Source of the DNA: a virus
IMG/VR virus record: IMGVR_UViG_3300020159_000995
Coordinates: 1 to 27,417 of that record
Reading direction: 5' to 3' (one strand)
DNA: 27,417 bases
Each line of letters opens with the position of its first letter. Positions within the stretch are counted from its first letter, which is position 1. Shown here piece by piece: positions 7,748 to 27,417 of this stretch. The position numbers were made by a program, and so were the translations under genes. The notes beneath the pieces were generated by a model that did no database searches, was not told the DNA's origin, and was given only the letters and a program-made list of their open reading frames with translations.

Positions 7748-8500
7748 TTAAGTACCTACATTATATTTATTCACATAAAAGGCATACAGGTCTTCAGAAT
7801 ATAACTTATGTGGTATTTCGTCATGGTGCCAGTACTTTGCTTTTGGGTTGGTGTATCCTGCATTTCGGTATTTCCAATAAAAACAACTATCATTGTCTTT
7901 TAAATTCAAATAGCAACTTTCGTCAATATAACACAAATATGAATCTAGATGTTTATAATTTGTAAACATGTTCATAGTATTGCACATCAAGTACGGAATG
8001 TTCAATGATCTTAAAAAATATTGTATTTGTAAAACTACGTTAGCAGCCTGTATTTCTAGATAACAAAGATTATCTGACATAAACTCTTGGCACCTTGCGA
8101 TAACCCTCTCTTCTTCAGGATATCCACCTTTGTATCCAAAATTAACACGTATAAAATCTCTTGCGGAATTTGATACATAATCCCCGGCAGTATCCCATTG
8201 CTCATACCACGTTTCTCTATCCATTGGCAGCTCTAGTCTAGAGCTTTCTGTCCACGATACTAAAACAGAAAGATCCATGGTACTAGAATTATAATGTTTG
8301 TTGATCCATTCAATTGTAGTTCTTGCTATTGTATGGTTTGCTGAGCCACTTGAAGCAATATTAATTGCTCGGCGACCTAACTTATTTGCCAATAAATTTC
8401 CAAAAGAATGATTCCTATTGTAGGTACTGTCAGTAGTTCCGTCAATTTCTGACCCAGCAGCATTACTACATCCAACTATTAATAATATTTTTTCTTTCAT
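7748..8500 (-). CDS. SGNH/GDSL-like hydrolase, copy 2
   Basis: A 250-aa protein that begins MKEKILLIVGCSNAAGSE, a block I like that of its neighbour (GCS). IASSGSANHTIAR near residues 58-70 resembles block II (G..N), and a late DEIPHKLYSEDLYAFY stretch may hold the Asp/His pair. Similarity to copy 1 is limited to these blocks and to the general layout, so this is an old duplication or two independent acquisitions. I chose the ATG at 8500. The open frame extends to a TTG at 8530, but that adds ten residues before the first beta strand. Neither start has a good ribosome-binding site. There are 38 non-coding bases between this start and the stop of the radical SAM gene upstream. Confidence 0.62.
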   Translation of the reverse strand: MKEKILLIVGCSNAAGSEIDGTTDSTYNRNHSFGNLLANKLGRRAINIASSGSANHTIARTTIEWINKHYNSSTMDLSVLVSWTESSRLELPMDRETWYEQWDTAGDYVSNSARDFIRVNFGYKGGYPEEERVIARCQEFMSDNLCYLEIQAANVVLQIQYFLRSLNIPYLMCNTMNMFTNYKHLDSYLCYIDESCYLNLKDNDSCFYWKYRNAGYTNPKAKYWHHDEIPHKLYSEDLYAFYVNKYNVGT

Positions 8501-23341: not shown

Positions 23342-23421
23342 GACTTATGGTTTTCCTACAAAAGTTTCCTTAACTCGTATTTAGCCACAATTTTTTAACA
23401 CTGACCTACAAGTAATTAAAT
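23342..23421. promoter_or_regulatory. Divergent intergenic region between the two gene blocks
   Basis: Eighty AT-rich bases separate the minus-strand giant gene from the plus-strand GT9-like gene. On the minus strand GCTAAATAC (23385-23377), about 36 bases before the ATG, resembles the TATAAATA late promoter of T4-type phages with changes. AGGA lies about 12 bases before that ATG. No sigma70-type pair like those further right is visible on either strand, and no clear ribosome-binding site precedes the plus-strand ATG. The late-promoter reading is weak. Confidence 0.35.
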
Positions 23422-24186
23422 ATGTATATTATGAATAGATTCAAACACAGCGGTGCGCTAGGCGACCTCATCTACAGTCTACCCATAGTTCAACACCTGG
23501 GTGGCGGAGAGTTTTACCTACATCTTAATCAAATGGACTGGATCGGGCAGCACTACTATGGCGCCAGACCCGCACCATTCCACCAAGGACGCATGAACCT
23601 GGCAGACTATGAATACATGCGGTCATTCATGGCGGCACAGGAGTACATAGAGAAATTTGACGTCATGCACTCCAGCACCGAAATAACACACAACCTAGAC
23701 CGATTTAGGCCGGCCTTTGTTGGGCACCCCTGTAACTATCTAGATCTATATGCCCAGATACACGGCATAGACCCCGAGAAGATGTACCAACCCTGGCTGT
23801 CAGTGCCTAACCCTAAAATCCTAGAGGGTCGACCCATTGTGGTTAACCGTACCCTACGGTGGATAGGCGCAGAGCCCAGCCCCGTATGGACAGACCTACG
23901 GGCACGGGGGCTAGAAAGCCAAATCGTATTCGTGGGTCTCGCCGATGAATATCAGGCATTCCGGCAGGCCACAGGGCTAGACGTAGAGTACTACCCTACC
24001 CAGACCATGCTAGAGCTCGCTGAAGTCATAGCCGGTGCTAAAACGTTTGTGGGCAACCAAAGTCAGGCCTATGCCCTGGCTGTGGGTCTGGGTGTAGCCG
24101 ACATTGTCCTAGAAGCCCGGGTAGACATGCCCTTGACCCGAAACGAGTGTTATTTTCCCGATTTTCCAAACATACGCTATGTCTAG
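23422..24186 (+). CDS. GT9/heptosyltransferase-like protein, gene 1
   Basis: A 254-aa protein that starts MYIMNRFKHSGALGDLIYSLPIVQHLGG, the N-terminal Rossmann turn (GxLGD) seen in ADP-heptose:LPS heptosyltransferase-like proteins of phages. The C-terminal half has IVFVGLADEYQAFRQATG followed by KTFVGNQSQAYALAVGLGV (207-225), corresponding to the donor-binding helix of GT9 enzymes. It is shorter than cellular heptosyltransferases (over 300 aa), so it is a reduced version and may act on a different donor. Met4 is an alternative start, with no better ribosome-binding site. The gene is much richer in G+C than the minus-strand block, with many CTA and CCC codons. A related gene follows 220 bp downstream. 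Confidence 0.7.
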   Translation: MYIMNRFKHSGALGDLIYSLPIVQHLGGGEFYLHLNQMDWIGQHYYGARPAPFHQGRMNLADYEYMRSFMAAQEYIEKFDVMHSSTEITHNLDRFRPAFVGHPCNYLDLYAQIHGIDPEKMYQPWLSVPNPKILEGRPIVVNRTLRWIGAEPSPVWTDLRARGLESQIVFVGLADEYQAFRQATGLDVEYYPTQTMLELAEVIAGAKTFVGNQSQAYALAVGLGVADIVLEARVDMPLTRNECYFPDFPNIRYV

Positions 24187-24187
24187 G

Positions 24188-24216
24188 TTGACACTTTGGT
24201 AAAACCCAGCTATAAT
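24188..24216 (+). promoter_or_regulatory. Sigma70-type promoter P1
   Basis: TTGACA at 24188-24193, a 17-base spacer, then TATAAT at 24211-24216: a perfect consensus pair. It starts two bases after the stop codon of the preceding gene and drives the 55-aa gene, which has AGGAG at 24231-24235 and ATG at 24244. The spacer contains TGGTAAAACCCAGC, shared with the promoter at 26320. Confidence 0.88.
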
Positions 24217-24243
24217 TACAACAAGTAAACAGGAGAGCACACT

Positions 24244-24411
24244 ATGAACCTATTTGAAGTACGCATTGCACTCAACGGAGACCGCGGTAATACCGCTGTT
24301 GTGCAAATCTGGGCTGCCGACGCCTATGCTTGCCAGCAAATTGCCCAGGCACAGTATGGTCCGGCCAACGTGATCTACTACCGGGATATTACCCCTGGCA
24401 GCTCATGGTAA
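24244..24411 (+). CDS. Small 55-aa protein of unknown function
   Basis: An open frame of 55 codons with ATG at 24244, preceded by AGGAG with an 8-base spacer and by the consensus promoter P1. The protein has an N-terminal strand (FEVRIALNGD), a second strand (TAVVQIW), an Ala-rich helix starting AADAYACQQIAQA, and a last strand (NVIYYRDI): a beta-beta-alpha-beta plan. Small proteins of this plan are found in aquatic phages, but I know of no function. Its stop codon overlaps the ATG of the next glycosyltransferase by 7 bp, so the two are co-transcribed and probably coupled. The strong signals make it a real gene despite its size. Confidence 0.8.
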   Translation: MNLFEVRIALNGDRGNTAVVQIWAADAYACQQIAQAQYGPANVIYYRDITPGSSW

Positions 24412-25124
24412 AACAGCGAACACTGGGTATCATACAAAGCCGCGGGCTAGGAGATCTGGTCATAGCCCTGCCCATAGCGGGTCACTACCACGAAGAGGGC
24501 TACACCATCATATGGCCCATACTGGCGGAGTTTGTACCCAGTATGCAGGCCCTGGCCCCCTGGGTTAAATGGGTACCTTTACCCTATGATGCCCCGGGTC
24601 GTTACTTTTATGACGTACCCATGGAGCGACTGCGAAACTTCCGTTGTGACGAAATACTGCCACTGTATCAGCACCTGAGTAATCACGACTTCTCCAAAGA
24701 AAAGTATTTCCAGTACACATCCTTTGATCAGTACAAATATATACGTGCAGGCGTACCTTTCCTGAAGAAATGGGAATTATCTAAGTATATTACCCGCAAT
24801 CCCGAACGTGAACAAGCCCTATACAACGAAGTAGTAGAAAACCCAGACTATGTGGTCACTCACTTACAGGGCAGTGATCACCGTGCCACCTACGATCCTA
24901 AAATAGTCCCAGAAGGCTGGCAGACCATAGAAATTACGGAACGACCGGGCTATAACCTACAGGATTGGCTACTTGTACTAGAACGAGCACAGAGTCTTAT
25001 ACTAGTAGACAGTGTGTACGCAAACCTAGTGGATCAATTAAACATCGGCGAAGATCGCTACTTTATCCAAAGAAGTCACATAGGACTAACACCCGTACAA
25101 GGACAACACTGGACCTGGCTTTAA
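24405..25124 (+). CDS. GT9/heptosyltransferase-like protein, gene 2
   Basis: A 239-aa protein starting MVKQRTLGIIQSRGLGDLVIALPIAGHY. The GLGDLVIALP turn is equivalent to GALGDLIYSLP in the gene at 23422. The C-terminal half has VVTHLQGSDHRATYDP and LILVDSVYANLVDQL, which sits where GT9 enzymes have the DSG..HLA donor-site helix. I chose the ATG at 24405 because it overlaps the stop of the 55-aa gene; a longer frame to 24330 would run through that gene. The pair with the gene at 23422 looks like an old duplication. There is no membrane segment, so it is a soluble or peripheral enzyme. The sugar and acceptor are unknown. Confidence 0.68.
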   Translation: MVKQRTLGIIQSRGLGDLVIALPIAGHYHEEGYTIIWPILAEFVPSMQALAPWVKWVPLPYDAPGRYFYDVPMERLRNFRCDEILPLYQHLSNHDFSKEKYFQYTSFDQYKYIRAGVPFLKKWELSKYITRNPEREQALYNEVVENPDYVVTHLQGSDHRATYDPKIVPEGWQTIEITERPGYNLQDWLLVLERAQSLILVDSVYANLVDQLNIGEDRYFIQRSHIGLTPVQGQHWTWL

Positions 25125-25140
25125 GCCGGTAAATATAGGG

Positions 25141-25350
25141 ATGAGCACCCGTCATCCTACACGCCAGGAAGAGTTCCAGAGAGAAATCAACGAGATGTTA
25201 GAGAATTCTCCGTATAAAGATGACGTCAGTCTACATAGACTATACTGTATGGGACTACTTAGAGAACTACTGATATATAGTGCAGTAGACATCTTGGAAG
25301 TACGTGAGCGCATAAGATACCTAGCTGAACGTGATAATAGTAGCAGGTAA
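25141..25350 (+). CDS. Small 69-aa protein of unknown function
   Basis: A charged, mostly helical protein (RQEEFQREINEMLEN, then LHRLYCMGLLRELLIYSAVDILEVRERIRYLAER). It has no known motif and no membrane segment. The ATG at 25141 is directly preceded by AGGG with almost no spacer, which is poor. A second ATG at 25195 would give a 51-aa product. The stop is well separated from the next features. Transcription could come from P1 through the glycosyltransferase gene, since there is no terminator between them. The call that it is coding rests on the coherent amphipathic helices and on its place at the end of the gene run. Confidence 0.55.
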   Translation: MSTRHPTRQEEFQREINEMLENSPYKDDVSLHRLYCMGLLRELLIYSAVDILEVRERIRYLAERDNSSR

Positions 25351-25799
25351 GCATAATACACTATATACACTGCAAATACCCCGCTAGAGCTAGTACCCAG
25401 AATACCCCGCTATAAGAGAATAGGAGAGTTCTCCGTAGCGCCAGACAGTGAGCGTAGCGAACGCAGCCGCACCGACAGCACAGAGTACACAGACGCCGTA
25501 TACAGTGAAAACCCCGCTAGAGCATGTACACCGAATACCCCGCTATAAGAGAATCAGGGCCGTGGCTGAACCTGAGCCAGGGTGGCGCCCGGGCAGGAGA
25601 AAAGTGGTGAATGGTGGTGGAACATTTGACTATAGCCTCTCATCCCCACCATGATCTCACAATTTCTACAGTGATTTCACCGTGAAAAAGCCACAGAAAC
25701 GGCGCCAGAATCCCAGAATTTTCACCATTTTCCTGCCAATTTGGACCAAAAATTCCGTGTTTTTTCCGGATTTTTACCACCATTTTACCGGTGTCCAGA
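25351..25799. other. Non-coding region with repeats and a GC-shift
   Basis: About 450 bases with no convincing gene. The first half (25374-25555) holds the spaced repeat pair listed separately and a short hairpin GGAGAGTTCTCC at 25423-25434. The second half (25640-25799) is rich in TTTTC/TTTTACC words. TTTTACCA at 25772-25779 and TTTTACCG at 25783-25790 are 11 bases apart, ending just before the -35 of the tRNA promoter. They match the octamer found in the spacers of three other promoters, so they may be regulatory. Confidence 0.55.
25374..25555 (+). repeat. Pair of two-part direct repeats, 133 bp apart
   Basis: Each copy has two elements 26 bp apart: CCCCGCTAGAG (25379-25389; second copy 25512-25522) and AATACCCCGCTATAAGAGAAT (25401-25421; second copy 25534-25554, identical). 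Both elements share ATACCCCGCTA, so there are four related words in all. The regular 26 and 133 bp distances point to a duplicated protein-binding or structural module. It is not a CRISPR: there are too few units and no uniform spacers. Confidence 0.75.
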
Positions 25800-25828
25800 T
25801 TGACCTAAGCCTAAATATACAGTACAAT
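25800..25828 (+). promoter_or_regulatory. Sigma70-type promoter P2, for the tRNA unit
   Basis: TTGACC at 25800-25805, 17-base spacer, TACAAT at 25823-25828: one change from consensus in each box. It lies 32 bases before the tRNA. The two TTTTACC words just upstream may be operator sites. Confidence 0.72.
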
Positions 25829-25837
25829 ATATGCTTG

Positions 25838-25857
25838 TGCTAGTAGTTGTACTAGCA
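25838..25857 (+). other. Perfect hairpin in front of the tRNA
   Basis: TGCTAGTA (25838-25845), loop GTTG, TACTAGCA (25850-25857): an 8-bp perfect stem three bases before the tRNA. There is no T-run behind it, so it is not a normal terminator. It may protect or position the 5' leader of the tRNA precursor for RNase P cleavage. Confidence 0.55.
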
Positions 25858-25860
25858 TTT

Positions 25861-25939
<79 letters not shown>

Positions 25940-25940
25940 A

Positions 25941-26164
25941 GTTTTAACAGCGTTGAAACCCGAGGATGGGGAGATATATGCAGTGTATGGAGAATCAGGA
26001 ACTAGAAGTCTGGGAGATTCAAGTAAGCACTGTTGAGGAAAGACCTAGTCGGACCGCATACCCGCCGAATCTGTGACCATGGCTTCTAGTGGTAAAGGCT
26101 CGTGTAGTGATAGACAGGAACAAGCAGACGGGGACACTGTGAGGAGACTTGCCTACACTGTGTA
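25941..26164 (+). ncRNA. Candidate structured non-coding RNA between tRNA and terminator
   Basis: No reading frame with a ribosome-binding site fits this 225-base stretch, yet it folds in a nested way. Hairpin 1: 25941-25948 with 25952-25959, directly after the tRNA CCA. Outer stem: 25977-25987 with 26154-26164, 11 bp with two G-U pairs. Inner arm: 26001-26010 with 26081-26090 (10 bp), continued by 26011-26013 with 26077-26079, then 26015-26020 with 26067-26072. The inner and outer stems enclose each other without conflict. The 3' end meets a strong terminator. I do not recognise the family. Confidence 0.5.
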
Positions 26165-26167
26165 CTG

Positions 26168-26205
26168 AAAACCCTATAGCCCGAAAGGTTATAGGGGTTT
26201 TCTTT
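26168..26205 (+). terminator. Rho-independent terminator after the tRNA unit
   Basis: AACCCTATAGCC pairs with GGTTATAGGG and following bases around the loop CGAAA, with flanking A-run and T-run (GGGGTTTTCTTT). The long GC/AT stem with a T tail is a textbook terminator and closes the non-coding unit that begins at P2. Confidence 0.88.
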
Positions 26206-26208
26206 GAG

Positions 26209-26260
26209 TGTGTATAAGCTGTGGATAAGCTGTGGATTGTCTGTGTATAAGTTATCCACA
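26209..26260 (+). other. DnaA-box array, origin-like element
   Basis: Five 9-mers: TGTGTATAA (26209-26217), TGTGGATAA (26220-26228), TGTGGATTG (26231-26239), TGTGTATAA (26242-26250) and, inverted, TTATCCACA (26252-26260). Four of the five fit TTATNCACA or its complement exactly; the third has two changes. The first four start exactly 11 bp apart, close to one helical turn, so bound proteins would line up on one DNA face. Such helical phasing is typical of initiator-binding sites at replication origins. No long AT-rich unwinding stretch is obvious next to it; the flanking terminator and promoter are moderately AT-rich. Confidence 0.72.
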
Positions 26261-26319
26261 GGCGGTAGTGCCAGGATTGTGGCGATTCTACAACAAAGAC
26301 CCTACAGTGAATAGGGTGG

Positions 26320-26348
26320 TTGACATTCTGGTAAAACCCAGCTATAAT
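26320..26348 (+). promoter_or_regulatory. Sigma70-type promoter P3, giving a probably leaderless message
   Basis: TTGACA at 26320-26325, 17-base spacer, TATAAT at 26343-26348. The spacer carries TGGTAAAACCCAGC, identical to that of P1. The ATG of the GIY-YIG-like gene begins seven bases after the -10, at the expected transcription start. A 6-bp hairpin (26299-26304 with 26312-26317) lies just upstream of the -35. Confidence 0.85.
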
Positions 26349-26354
26349 ACACAC

Positions 26355-26693
26355 ATGGAAGCAAAAAACACACCCCGTAAACGGCGAGTAGATCGCAATC
26401 ACATCATATACGAGCTTCGTGTCAACGGGCTTAACTATATAGGCGTGACTGCAAAGACTGAAAGCACCGTACTCAAGTCTGTGCGTGTTCGTGCTAATAA
26501 GCACTTCTATCGCGCCAAAACTGAAGATAAAAACTGGCTCTTGTGTGCAGAACTTCGTAAGCTCGCAGACAAAAACGAGATAGAACTCGTTGTACATGAA
26601 GTCGTGCGTGGCAAAGCAGAAGCGCATCGGAGAGAAGTTGAGATCCGACGTGCAGTTCGCCCAGCTTTGAATACAGATGTGCGTGGTGACTAA
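26355..26693 (+). CDS. Small GIY-YIG-like nuclease
   Basis: A 112-aa protein with the layout of a one-domain GIY-YIG endonuclease. IIYEL (17-21) stands for GIY and NYIGVT (27-32) holds YIG. Arg44, Arg46 and His50 lie in the first helix, Glu94 sits in the AHRREVEIRR segment as the metal ligand, and Asn106 in PALNTDVRGD closes the core. The family cuts DNA in homing enzymes, repair and phage host-takeover. The start was chosen at the ATG that coincides with the P3 start point; the longer frame to 26232 would run through the promoter. The position next to the DnaA-box array is suggestive of a role in replication or in nicking there, but that is a guess. Confidence 0.78.
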   Translation: MEAKNTPRKRRVDRNHIIYELRVNGLNYIGVTAKTESTVLKSVRVRANKHFYRAKTEDKNWLLCAELRKLADKNEIELVVHEVVRGKAEAHRREVEIRRAVRPALNTDVRGD

Positions 26694-26718
26694 TAGCCCG
26701 ACTGGTTGACGGGTTATT
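26692..26718 (+). terminator. Hairpin terminator overlapping the next promoter
   Basis: AATAGCCCG (26692-26700), loop of 9, CGGGTTATT (26710-26718): a 9-bp stem with one G-U pair, followed by GGTTTTA. It starts inside the stop codon of the nuclease gene. The -35 box of P4 (TTGACG) begins in its loop and ends in the 3' arm. Confidence 0.65.
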
Positions 26719-26734
26719 GGTTTTACCATATAAT
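26706..26734 (+). promoter_or_regulatory. Sigma70-type promoter P4
   Basis: TTGACG at 26706-26711, 17-base spacer, TATAAT at 26729-26734. The last 12 bases TATAATTACAAC are the same as in P1. The spacer ends in TTTTACCA, the reverse complement of the TGGTAAAA seen in P1 and P3. The gene behind it has AGGAG at 26752-26756 and ATG at 26762. Confidence 0.83.
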
Positions 26735-26761
26735 TACAACATACACAGACAAGGAGCAGAA

Positions 26762-27043
26762 ATGAAACAGACTTATACACTATACATCTACCGTAGAGAT
26801 CGCCGTTGTAAGACGGGGGAAAGACTATTCTCTACTACGGTTTGGCATGCTCAGGATGCTGAGGGCATCAAGCGCGAGTGCAACGAACTCTACGACTTGT
26901 ACCCTGCTACACAAGGCTGGCGCATGGAGTGTGTGCCCACAATGAAGACTGTTCGCAACTTGATGACCGGGCAAGATGTTGAGATCCCGCACGACACACC
27001 CCGTAGTTGCGACCCATCTAGCGAACTTTATTGGAGCATGTGA
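26762..27043 (+). CDS. Small 93-aa protein of unknown function
   Basis: A 93-aa protein with a basic N-terminal half (YTLYIYRRDRRCKTGERLF) and a helix after WHAQDAEGIKRECNEL, then GWRMECVPT as the last strand and an acidic, proline-rich tail. The layout of strands, helix and strand parallels that of the 55-aa and 66-aa proteins nearby, with a W.A.DA-like start of the helix. The ATG is set by AGGAG and by P4; upstream in-frame codons lie in the promoter. The stop overlaps the next ATG by 1 base (TGATG). No known motif is visible, so no function is assigned. Confidence 0.75.
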   Translation: MKQTYTLYIYRRDRRCKTGERLFSTTVWHAQDAEGIKRECNELYDLYPATQGWRMECVPTMKTVRNLMTGQDVEIPHDTPRSCDPSSELYWSM

Positions 27044-27243
27044 TGTACAGTTATGTATGTCAGATGTTCTACAAAGACAAACTGTATTCCGGACACTATT
27101 GGAAATACAGTCAAGCCAAGGCCCGCAGGGAGATGGTCAAACTATGCGAGCATAGTCCGGGAATGAGATTTGAGTTGACAGACTACAAAACTGGTGTTAT
27201 AATAGATACTGTTGAACACACTATACACAACAAAGGAGCCTGA
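27043..27243 (+). CDS. Small 66-aa protein of unknown function
   Basis: A 66-aa protein (MYSYVCQMFYKDKLYSGHYW, then a helix KYSQAKARREMVKLCEH, then MRFELTDYKTG). It begins in the TGATG overlap with the 93-aa gene, so it is translationally coupled to it. A longer frame from 27031 would only add four residues. The beta-alpha-beta plan and the position of Tyr, Trp and Ala residues resemble those of the preceding protein, which suggests distant paralogy. Its last third contains the P5 promoter for the following gene. No function can be assigned. Confidence 0.7.
   Translation: MYSYVCQMFYKDKLYSGHYWKYSQAKARREMVKLCEHSPGMRFELTDYKTGVIIDTVEHTIHNKGA
27175..27203 (+). promoter_or_regulatory. Sigma70-type promoter P5 inside a coding region
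   Basis: TTGACA at 27175-27180, 17-base spacer, TATAAT at 27198-27203, both perfect. It sits in the 3' end of the 66-aa gene. The gene behind it has AAAGGAG at 27232-27238 and ATG at 27245. It lacks the TGGTAAAA octamer, so it may escape the common control suggested for P1, P3 and P4. Confidence 0.8.
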
Positions 27244-27244
27244 A

Positions 27245-27417
27245 ATGAGCAAGATTACAGTTGAAGTCACCTTCACAGAGAAAGAGCTTAAAGAATTGTT
27301 GATTGATGGGCTCGAGGGGCTCGAAGTCACCGACAAGGTCAAGATGAAAAAGATCTTCAATAGCAAGAGCTTTGCCAAAGGTCTTGCTGAAGACTTGAAG
27401 TATATCTGGACTCAGAA
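27245..27417 (+). CDS. Unknown small protein, N-terminal part (runs off the window)
   Basis: At least 57 residues are visible, beginning MSKITVEVTFTEKELKELLI. The fragment is charged, with a first strand (KITVEVTF), then helices rich in Lys, Glu and Leu, and a VKMKKIFNSKSFAKGLAEDL segment. It is preceded by a strong AAAGGAG and by P5. It reads as a small soluble phage protein; no motif is recognised, and the C-terminus is outside the window. Confidence 0.72.
   Translation, partial: MSKITVEVTFTEKELKELLIDGLEGLEVTDKVKMKKIFNSKSFAKGLAEDLKYIWTQ

Follow-up and report, generated by a model that had tools for sequence, protein, structure and literature searches.

Five DnaA-box-like 9-mers lie within 52 bases of a 27.4-kb virus record, raising the question of whether the phage engages the host replication initiator there, and if so whether the array acts as an origin, as a trap for DnaA or as a switch for the promoter beside it. 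We analysed the record over its full 27,417 nucleotides (hereafter the window), together with relatives of the locus and other phages carrying DnaA-box clusters.

The box array is phased and is not a chance cluster

Boxes were located by direct reading and by pattern search of the window, an exact box being TTATNCACA (Table 1). Direct reading confirmed what the sequence-only reading had described, namely four starts 11 bp apart (26209, 26220, 26231 and 26242), an inverted fifth box at 26252, and an exact sequence at four of the five, the exception being the box at 26231. Elsewhere in the window there are only two exact boxes, at 7767 and 19144. When the 600 bp around the array were dinucleotide-shuffled 20,000 times, no 52-bp stretch held more than one exact box, and in 300 shuffles of the whole window the maximum was two (2 of 300), against four observed. 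With one mismatch allowed, the whole window holds 41 boxes where 45.6 are expected, and as this is no excess, the enrichment is strictly a local one. The cluster certainly did not arise by chance, and the earlier claim that so many boxes in 52 bases are improbable by chance is upheld by the local and the whole-window shuffles alike. A role for the array as RNA or single strand was considered and rejected, since folding gave only a hairpin between boxes 2 and 5, as inverted boxes predict.

Table 1. Positions of the array and its neighbouring features in the window, and of the structured RNA in relatives
Feature	Position	Strand	Remarks
tRNA, CAT anticodon	25861..25939	+	5' of the structured RNA
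Conserved structured non-coding RNA	25955..26165	+	Covariation; without Rfam match
Intrinsic terminator of the structured RNA	26172..26196	+	Array begins 12 bp past its stem
DnaA box 1	26209..26217	-	Exact TTATACACA; plus-strand letters TGTGTATAA
DnaA box 2	26220..26228	-	Exact TTATCCACA; plus-strand letters TGTGGATAA
DnaA box 3, degenerate	26231..26239	-	CAATCCACA, two mismatches, in 11-bp phase; plus-strand letters TGTGGATTG
DnaA box 4	26242..26250	-	Exact TTATACACA; plus-strand letters TGTGTATAA
DnaA box 5, inverted	26252..26260	+	Exact TTATCCACA; one base after box 4
Conserved element GGCGGTAGTGCC..TTGTGGC..ACAACA with dyad	26261..26295	.	Between array and promoter
Sigma-70-type promoter	26320..26348	+	12/12 consensus bases, 17-bp spacer
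Gene for 112-aa GIY-YIG-like protein	26355..26693	+	Assigned by motif reading alone
Structured RNA in relatives	L080:4151-4359; L068:4446-4656; L138:3946-4149; others too		

The arrays of Escherichia coli oriC consist of co-oriented 9-mers exactly 2 bp apart that face inverted sites of opposite orientation (PMC4451416), and the phage array resembles them in both respects. Searches for the DnaA AAA+ and DnaA C-terminal families returned nothing over the cut-off in the relatives searched, and the C-terminal domain was found in none of eight large contigs. We infer from the sites that the boxes very probably bind host DnaA. The proposal that the phage uses host DnaA is upheld in part: as host DnaA sites the boxes are well supported by the oriC-like spacing and by the lack of a phage DnaA over the cut-off, while its origin component is weakened (below). 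Candidates for a phage-encoded DnaA amounted to five sub-threshold AAA+ matches, of which the one translated appears MoxR-like, and this possibility was dismissed. If the array binds DnaA, large uncultured phages in which no DnaA of their own was detected would engage the host initiator where their early region begins.

The array lies between an RNA terminator and the first early promoter

The window is divided into two blocks. Left of ~23.4 kb it is mostly ~35% G+C, rising rightwards within this block, and its leftward genes encode radical SAM proteins, nucleotide-sugar enzymes and a 1885-aa subtilase/Ig-domain protein; the right block (23400-27417) is ~47% G+C with rightward genes. Similar shifts in G+C to the one seen here (~35% to 47%), where the leftward (sugar-modification and radical SAM) and rightward blocks meet, are found at about the same place in the related contigs G003 and G007. 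At the head of the rightward early block the order is tRNA, structured RNA, terminator, array, conserved element, sigma-70 promoter and GIY-YIG-like gene, the array occupying the gap with the RNA terminator on one side and the element and promoter on the other. The gene-poor stretch 5' of the tRNA (25370-25560) contains recurring phrases around AATACCCCGCTA(TAA)GAGAAT and ACCCCGCTAGAGC.

Among 58 non-redundant upstream regions, 43 have a GTGCC-type match to the conserved element. In the window copy and upstream regions of relatives, AGTGCC is followed by a dyad that reads TTGT..ACAA or TGTG..CACA depending on the relative. This dyad suggests a putative symmetric binding site or hairpin between array and promoter. 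The ATG of the GIY-YIG-like gene lies 6 nt past the -10 hexamer (TATAAT), a distance kept in 45 of the 58 non-redundant relatives, and a leaderless mRNA is therefore predicted for this gene; the window's genes next to it carry ribosome-binding sites of the ordinary kind. Searches of Pfam and PDB with the GIY-YIG-like protein gave no match above cut-off, and the exact promoter core was found in none of the other viral contigs searched. A near-copy of the promoter is present in the window itself at 24188 (24186-24216 compared with 26319-26349; 31 bp, 94% alike, core TGGTAAAACCCAGCTATAAT), and TGGTAAAACC upstream of the GIY-YIG-like gene is common to many relatives.

A patchy subset of relatives carries box clusters in the same gap

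In IMG/VR we found 240 relatives of the 112-aa protein, with 74-88% identity among those kept. No cultured relative of its gene was found among 50,697 phage records, and none was confirmed in bacterial genomes. The related contig G010 encodes a protein for which the best matches with an annotation bear the name DnaK and which also matches uncultured phages of 480-735 kb, pointing to large phages; the array-bearing family is probably an uncultured large-phage clade.

In the same gap, L105/L110 carry at least seven plus-strand boxes, L138 four boxes on each strand immediately past the RNA terminator, and L134 three boxes ahead of the AGTGCC element; a little further downstream, four other relatives (L078, L087, L095 and L137) have box pairs in 11-bp phase. 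Boxes are lacking in L068 and L070, which stand closest to the window on the protein tree, and in the 159-kb G003 and the 208-kb G007 patterns with up to three mismatches were not clearly above a reversed-pattern control. The 11-bp phase, whose loss in closely related genomes had been put forward as a refutation, is lost in the closest relatives, yet clusters recur at one site in the window, L105/L110, L134 and L138. By this comparison the place is conserved and the array itself is not. Presence of the array is scattered over the tree of the neighbouring protein, with which a single origin is formally still compatible, and the patchiness could come from repeat turnover under weak selection. 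Because arrays are missing from the nearest relatives and not evident in G003 and G007, the array appears not to be required for replication or for the local gene. The contigs of the relatives are partial and could hold a second array elsewhere.

DnaA-box clusters in other phages

The exact two-box motif with 11-bp spacing occurs in 65 viral contigs, where we estimate from the pattern length that fewer than one would be found by chance. Leaving the seeded pair aside, the distance between neighbouring boxes is mainly 11, 22, 19, 23 and 12 bp, the 11-bp count being partly ascertained by the search motif. Genes flanking the motif in these 65 other contigs include terminases and endolysins or lysis genes, with no common replication gene. 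Cultured phages with clusters are the T5-like Epseptimavirus bombadil, the T7-like Berlinvirus P483, Stenotrophomonas phage Salva, Lactococcus phage AM4, Vibrio phage VS1 and Arthrobacter phage Seahorse. In the last five, as in the window, between two and five exact boxes are packed into ~100 bp of DNA that is non-coding or near-terminal, but these are unrelated phages with unrelated contexts and share no neighbouring gene. In several unrelated phages (the L003-L067 set, and P483, Salva, Seahorse and bombadil) box clusters were observed near terminase genes or genome ends.

The clusters of bombadil and P483 lie in early or terminal DNA. Both are lytic phages thought to replicate without DnaA, and we count clusters in such phages in favour of a trap. 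DnaA boxes were already known from the injection stop signal region of T5 (PMC13250531). As in the T5-like clusters, the boxes of the array match the consensus and lie in a non-coding part of the region that a lytic phage expresses first. The array differs in that its boxes are spaced 11 bp and follow an RNA gene, whereas the T5-like pairs are spaced 12 bp, and in that the T5-like region lies near a genome end, whereas the window and its relatives are fragments. If the array binds DnaA, whether the clusters of lytic phages (T5-like, T7-like and this clade) are origins, traps or local regulators becomes testable.

Weighing a trap against an origin, a switch and repeat slippage

Tentatively, and with somewhat less than even confidence, we favour a cooperative DnaA platform serving as an accessory trap, the trap function being held as a working hypothesis. 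DnaA molecules would be lined up along a single helix face by three to four boxes of like orientation, 2 bp apart, and the opposed fifth box would cap the array. The platform would sit past the end of the tRNA/RNA transcript and ahead of the first early promoter. Host DnaA would be captured there, and multiplying phage copies would compete with the host origin and so weaken host initiation; array-bound DnaA may also insulate the early promoter against upstream transcription. The five boxes of one incoming genome cannot titrate DnaA, and many copies would be needed for an effect. The chromosomal locus datA needs IHF and promotes DnaA-ATP hydrolysis. The array is like datA in being a dense cluster of consensus boxes away from any unwinding region, a feature expected of titration. 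Of the functions that the sequence-only reading had offered, titration fits best, and none of the observations conflicts with a trap or accessory DnaA-binding site. A further proposal, which we consider unlikely, is that the clade has assembled DnaA-binding arrays time and again at a single position, behind the new tRNA-linked structured RNA and before the first early promoter, as a device dedicated to capturing the host initiator.

That the array is instead all or part of the phage replication origin, where host DnaA would assemble and helicase would be loaded, is rather unlikely. It is a phased cluster of at least three boxes, as in oriC-type origins, with oriC-like spacing and orientation (PMC4451416). 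The boundary between leftward and rightward gene blocks falls at the array, as does the minimum of the cumulative GC skew in three long contigs; some relatives have DnaB-type helicase genes, but no initiator was found. The other viral arrays found with the motif have an AT-rich 40-mer nearby in 38 of 62 cases, against 34% of random positions. Such a region is absent here, the lowest 40-mer G+C within 300 bp being 0.35 (45th percentile of the window), whereas oriC arrays lie beside an AT-rich unwinding region; oriC arrays are also mostly low-affinity sites anchored by strong ones, while the phage boxes are mostly consensus. A simple scan found no DnaA-trio run near the array; the longest series of trio-like triplets was two, 84 bp away. 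Cumulative GC skew, proposed as a check, does have its minimum at the array site, but the skew tracks gene direction (r 0.57-0.79), the third-position skew of same-strand genes keeps its sign across the site, and an identical minimum occurs in the array-less G003 and G007. The minimum therefore appears to reflect gene direction and not replication strand, and we discarded the skew as proof of an origin. With the array also missing from the nearest relatives, the origin claim is weakened, and we judge the array to be an accessory host-DnaA-binding site, for titration or local control, rather than an oriC-type origin.

Local control could take the form of DnaA on the array repressing, activating or insulating the early promoter at 26320, as a switch or roadblock. 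DnaA is known to act both as a transcription factor and as a roadblock, the array is placed exactly between terminator and promoter, and the conserved element with its dyad adjoins it, so that the switch between terminator and promoter suggested earlier is possible. We nevertheless consider it quite unlikely, as ~60 bp separate the array end (26260) from the -35 box (26320), leaving boxes that neither overlap nor abut the promoter, and as promoter, element and leaderless start are all kept in relatives without boxes, while box number and orientation vary among relatives. Far less probable is an 11-bp tandem repeat that grew by slippage and only resembles DnaA boxes. The GC linkers common to the array units and the differing number of repeats among relatives would suit slippage, but tandem expansion cannot yield the inverted fifth box, and the same-site clusters of L105 and L138 differ in linkers and orientations. 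Unrelated viral contigs also have the same 9-mer at 11-bp spacing with varied linkers (GC, AC, AG and GG), a spacing partly ascertained by the search motif.

A conserved structured RNA precedes the array

The RNA upstream of the array is ~210 nt long and usually lies directly 3' of a tRNA gene. A model built from 13 sequences (R1) was searched against 63 loci and found it in 26, some of them outside the building set (67-134 bits); every match was on the plus strand and 5' of the GIY-YIG-like gene. Compensated changes, in which both sides differ and the pair is kept, occur in 43 of 47 predicted pairs. With the structure of the model itself, 93.9% of cells pair, and sliding the partners lowers this to 32-45%, in an alignment that is fitted to the model and so biased towards it; in the first, unfitted alignment 33 of 43 pairs were already compensated. 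The window RNA alone folds no more stably than its shuffles (z -0.8), so the case for structure rests on covariation. A search of Rfam with the RNA gave no match, and the conserved RNA motif used as a probe returned mostly known relatives, plus three partial chance matches. These comparisons suggest that the RNA is probably a new family of uncultured large phages; it is the most novel thing we met at this locus and a defined new target for functional work. The stable RNAs C and D of T4, which lie beside tRNA genes, offer a loose parallel.
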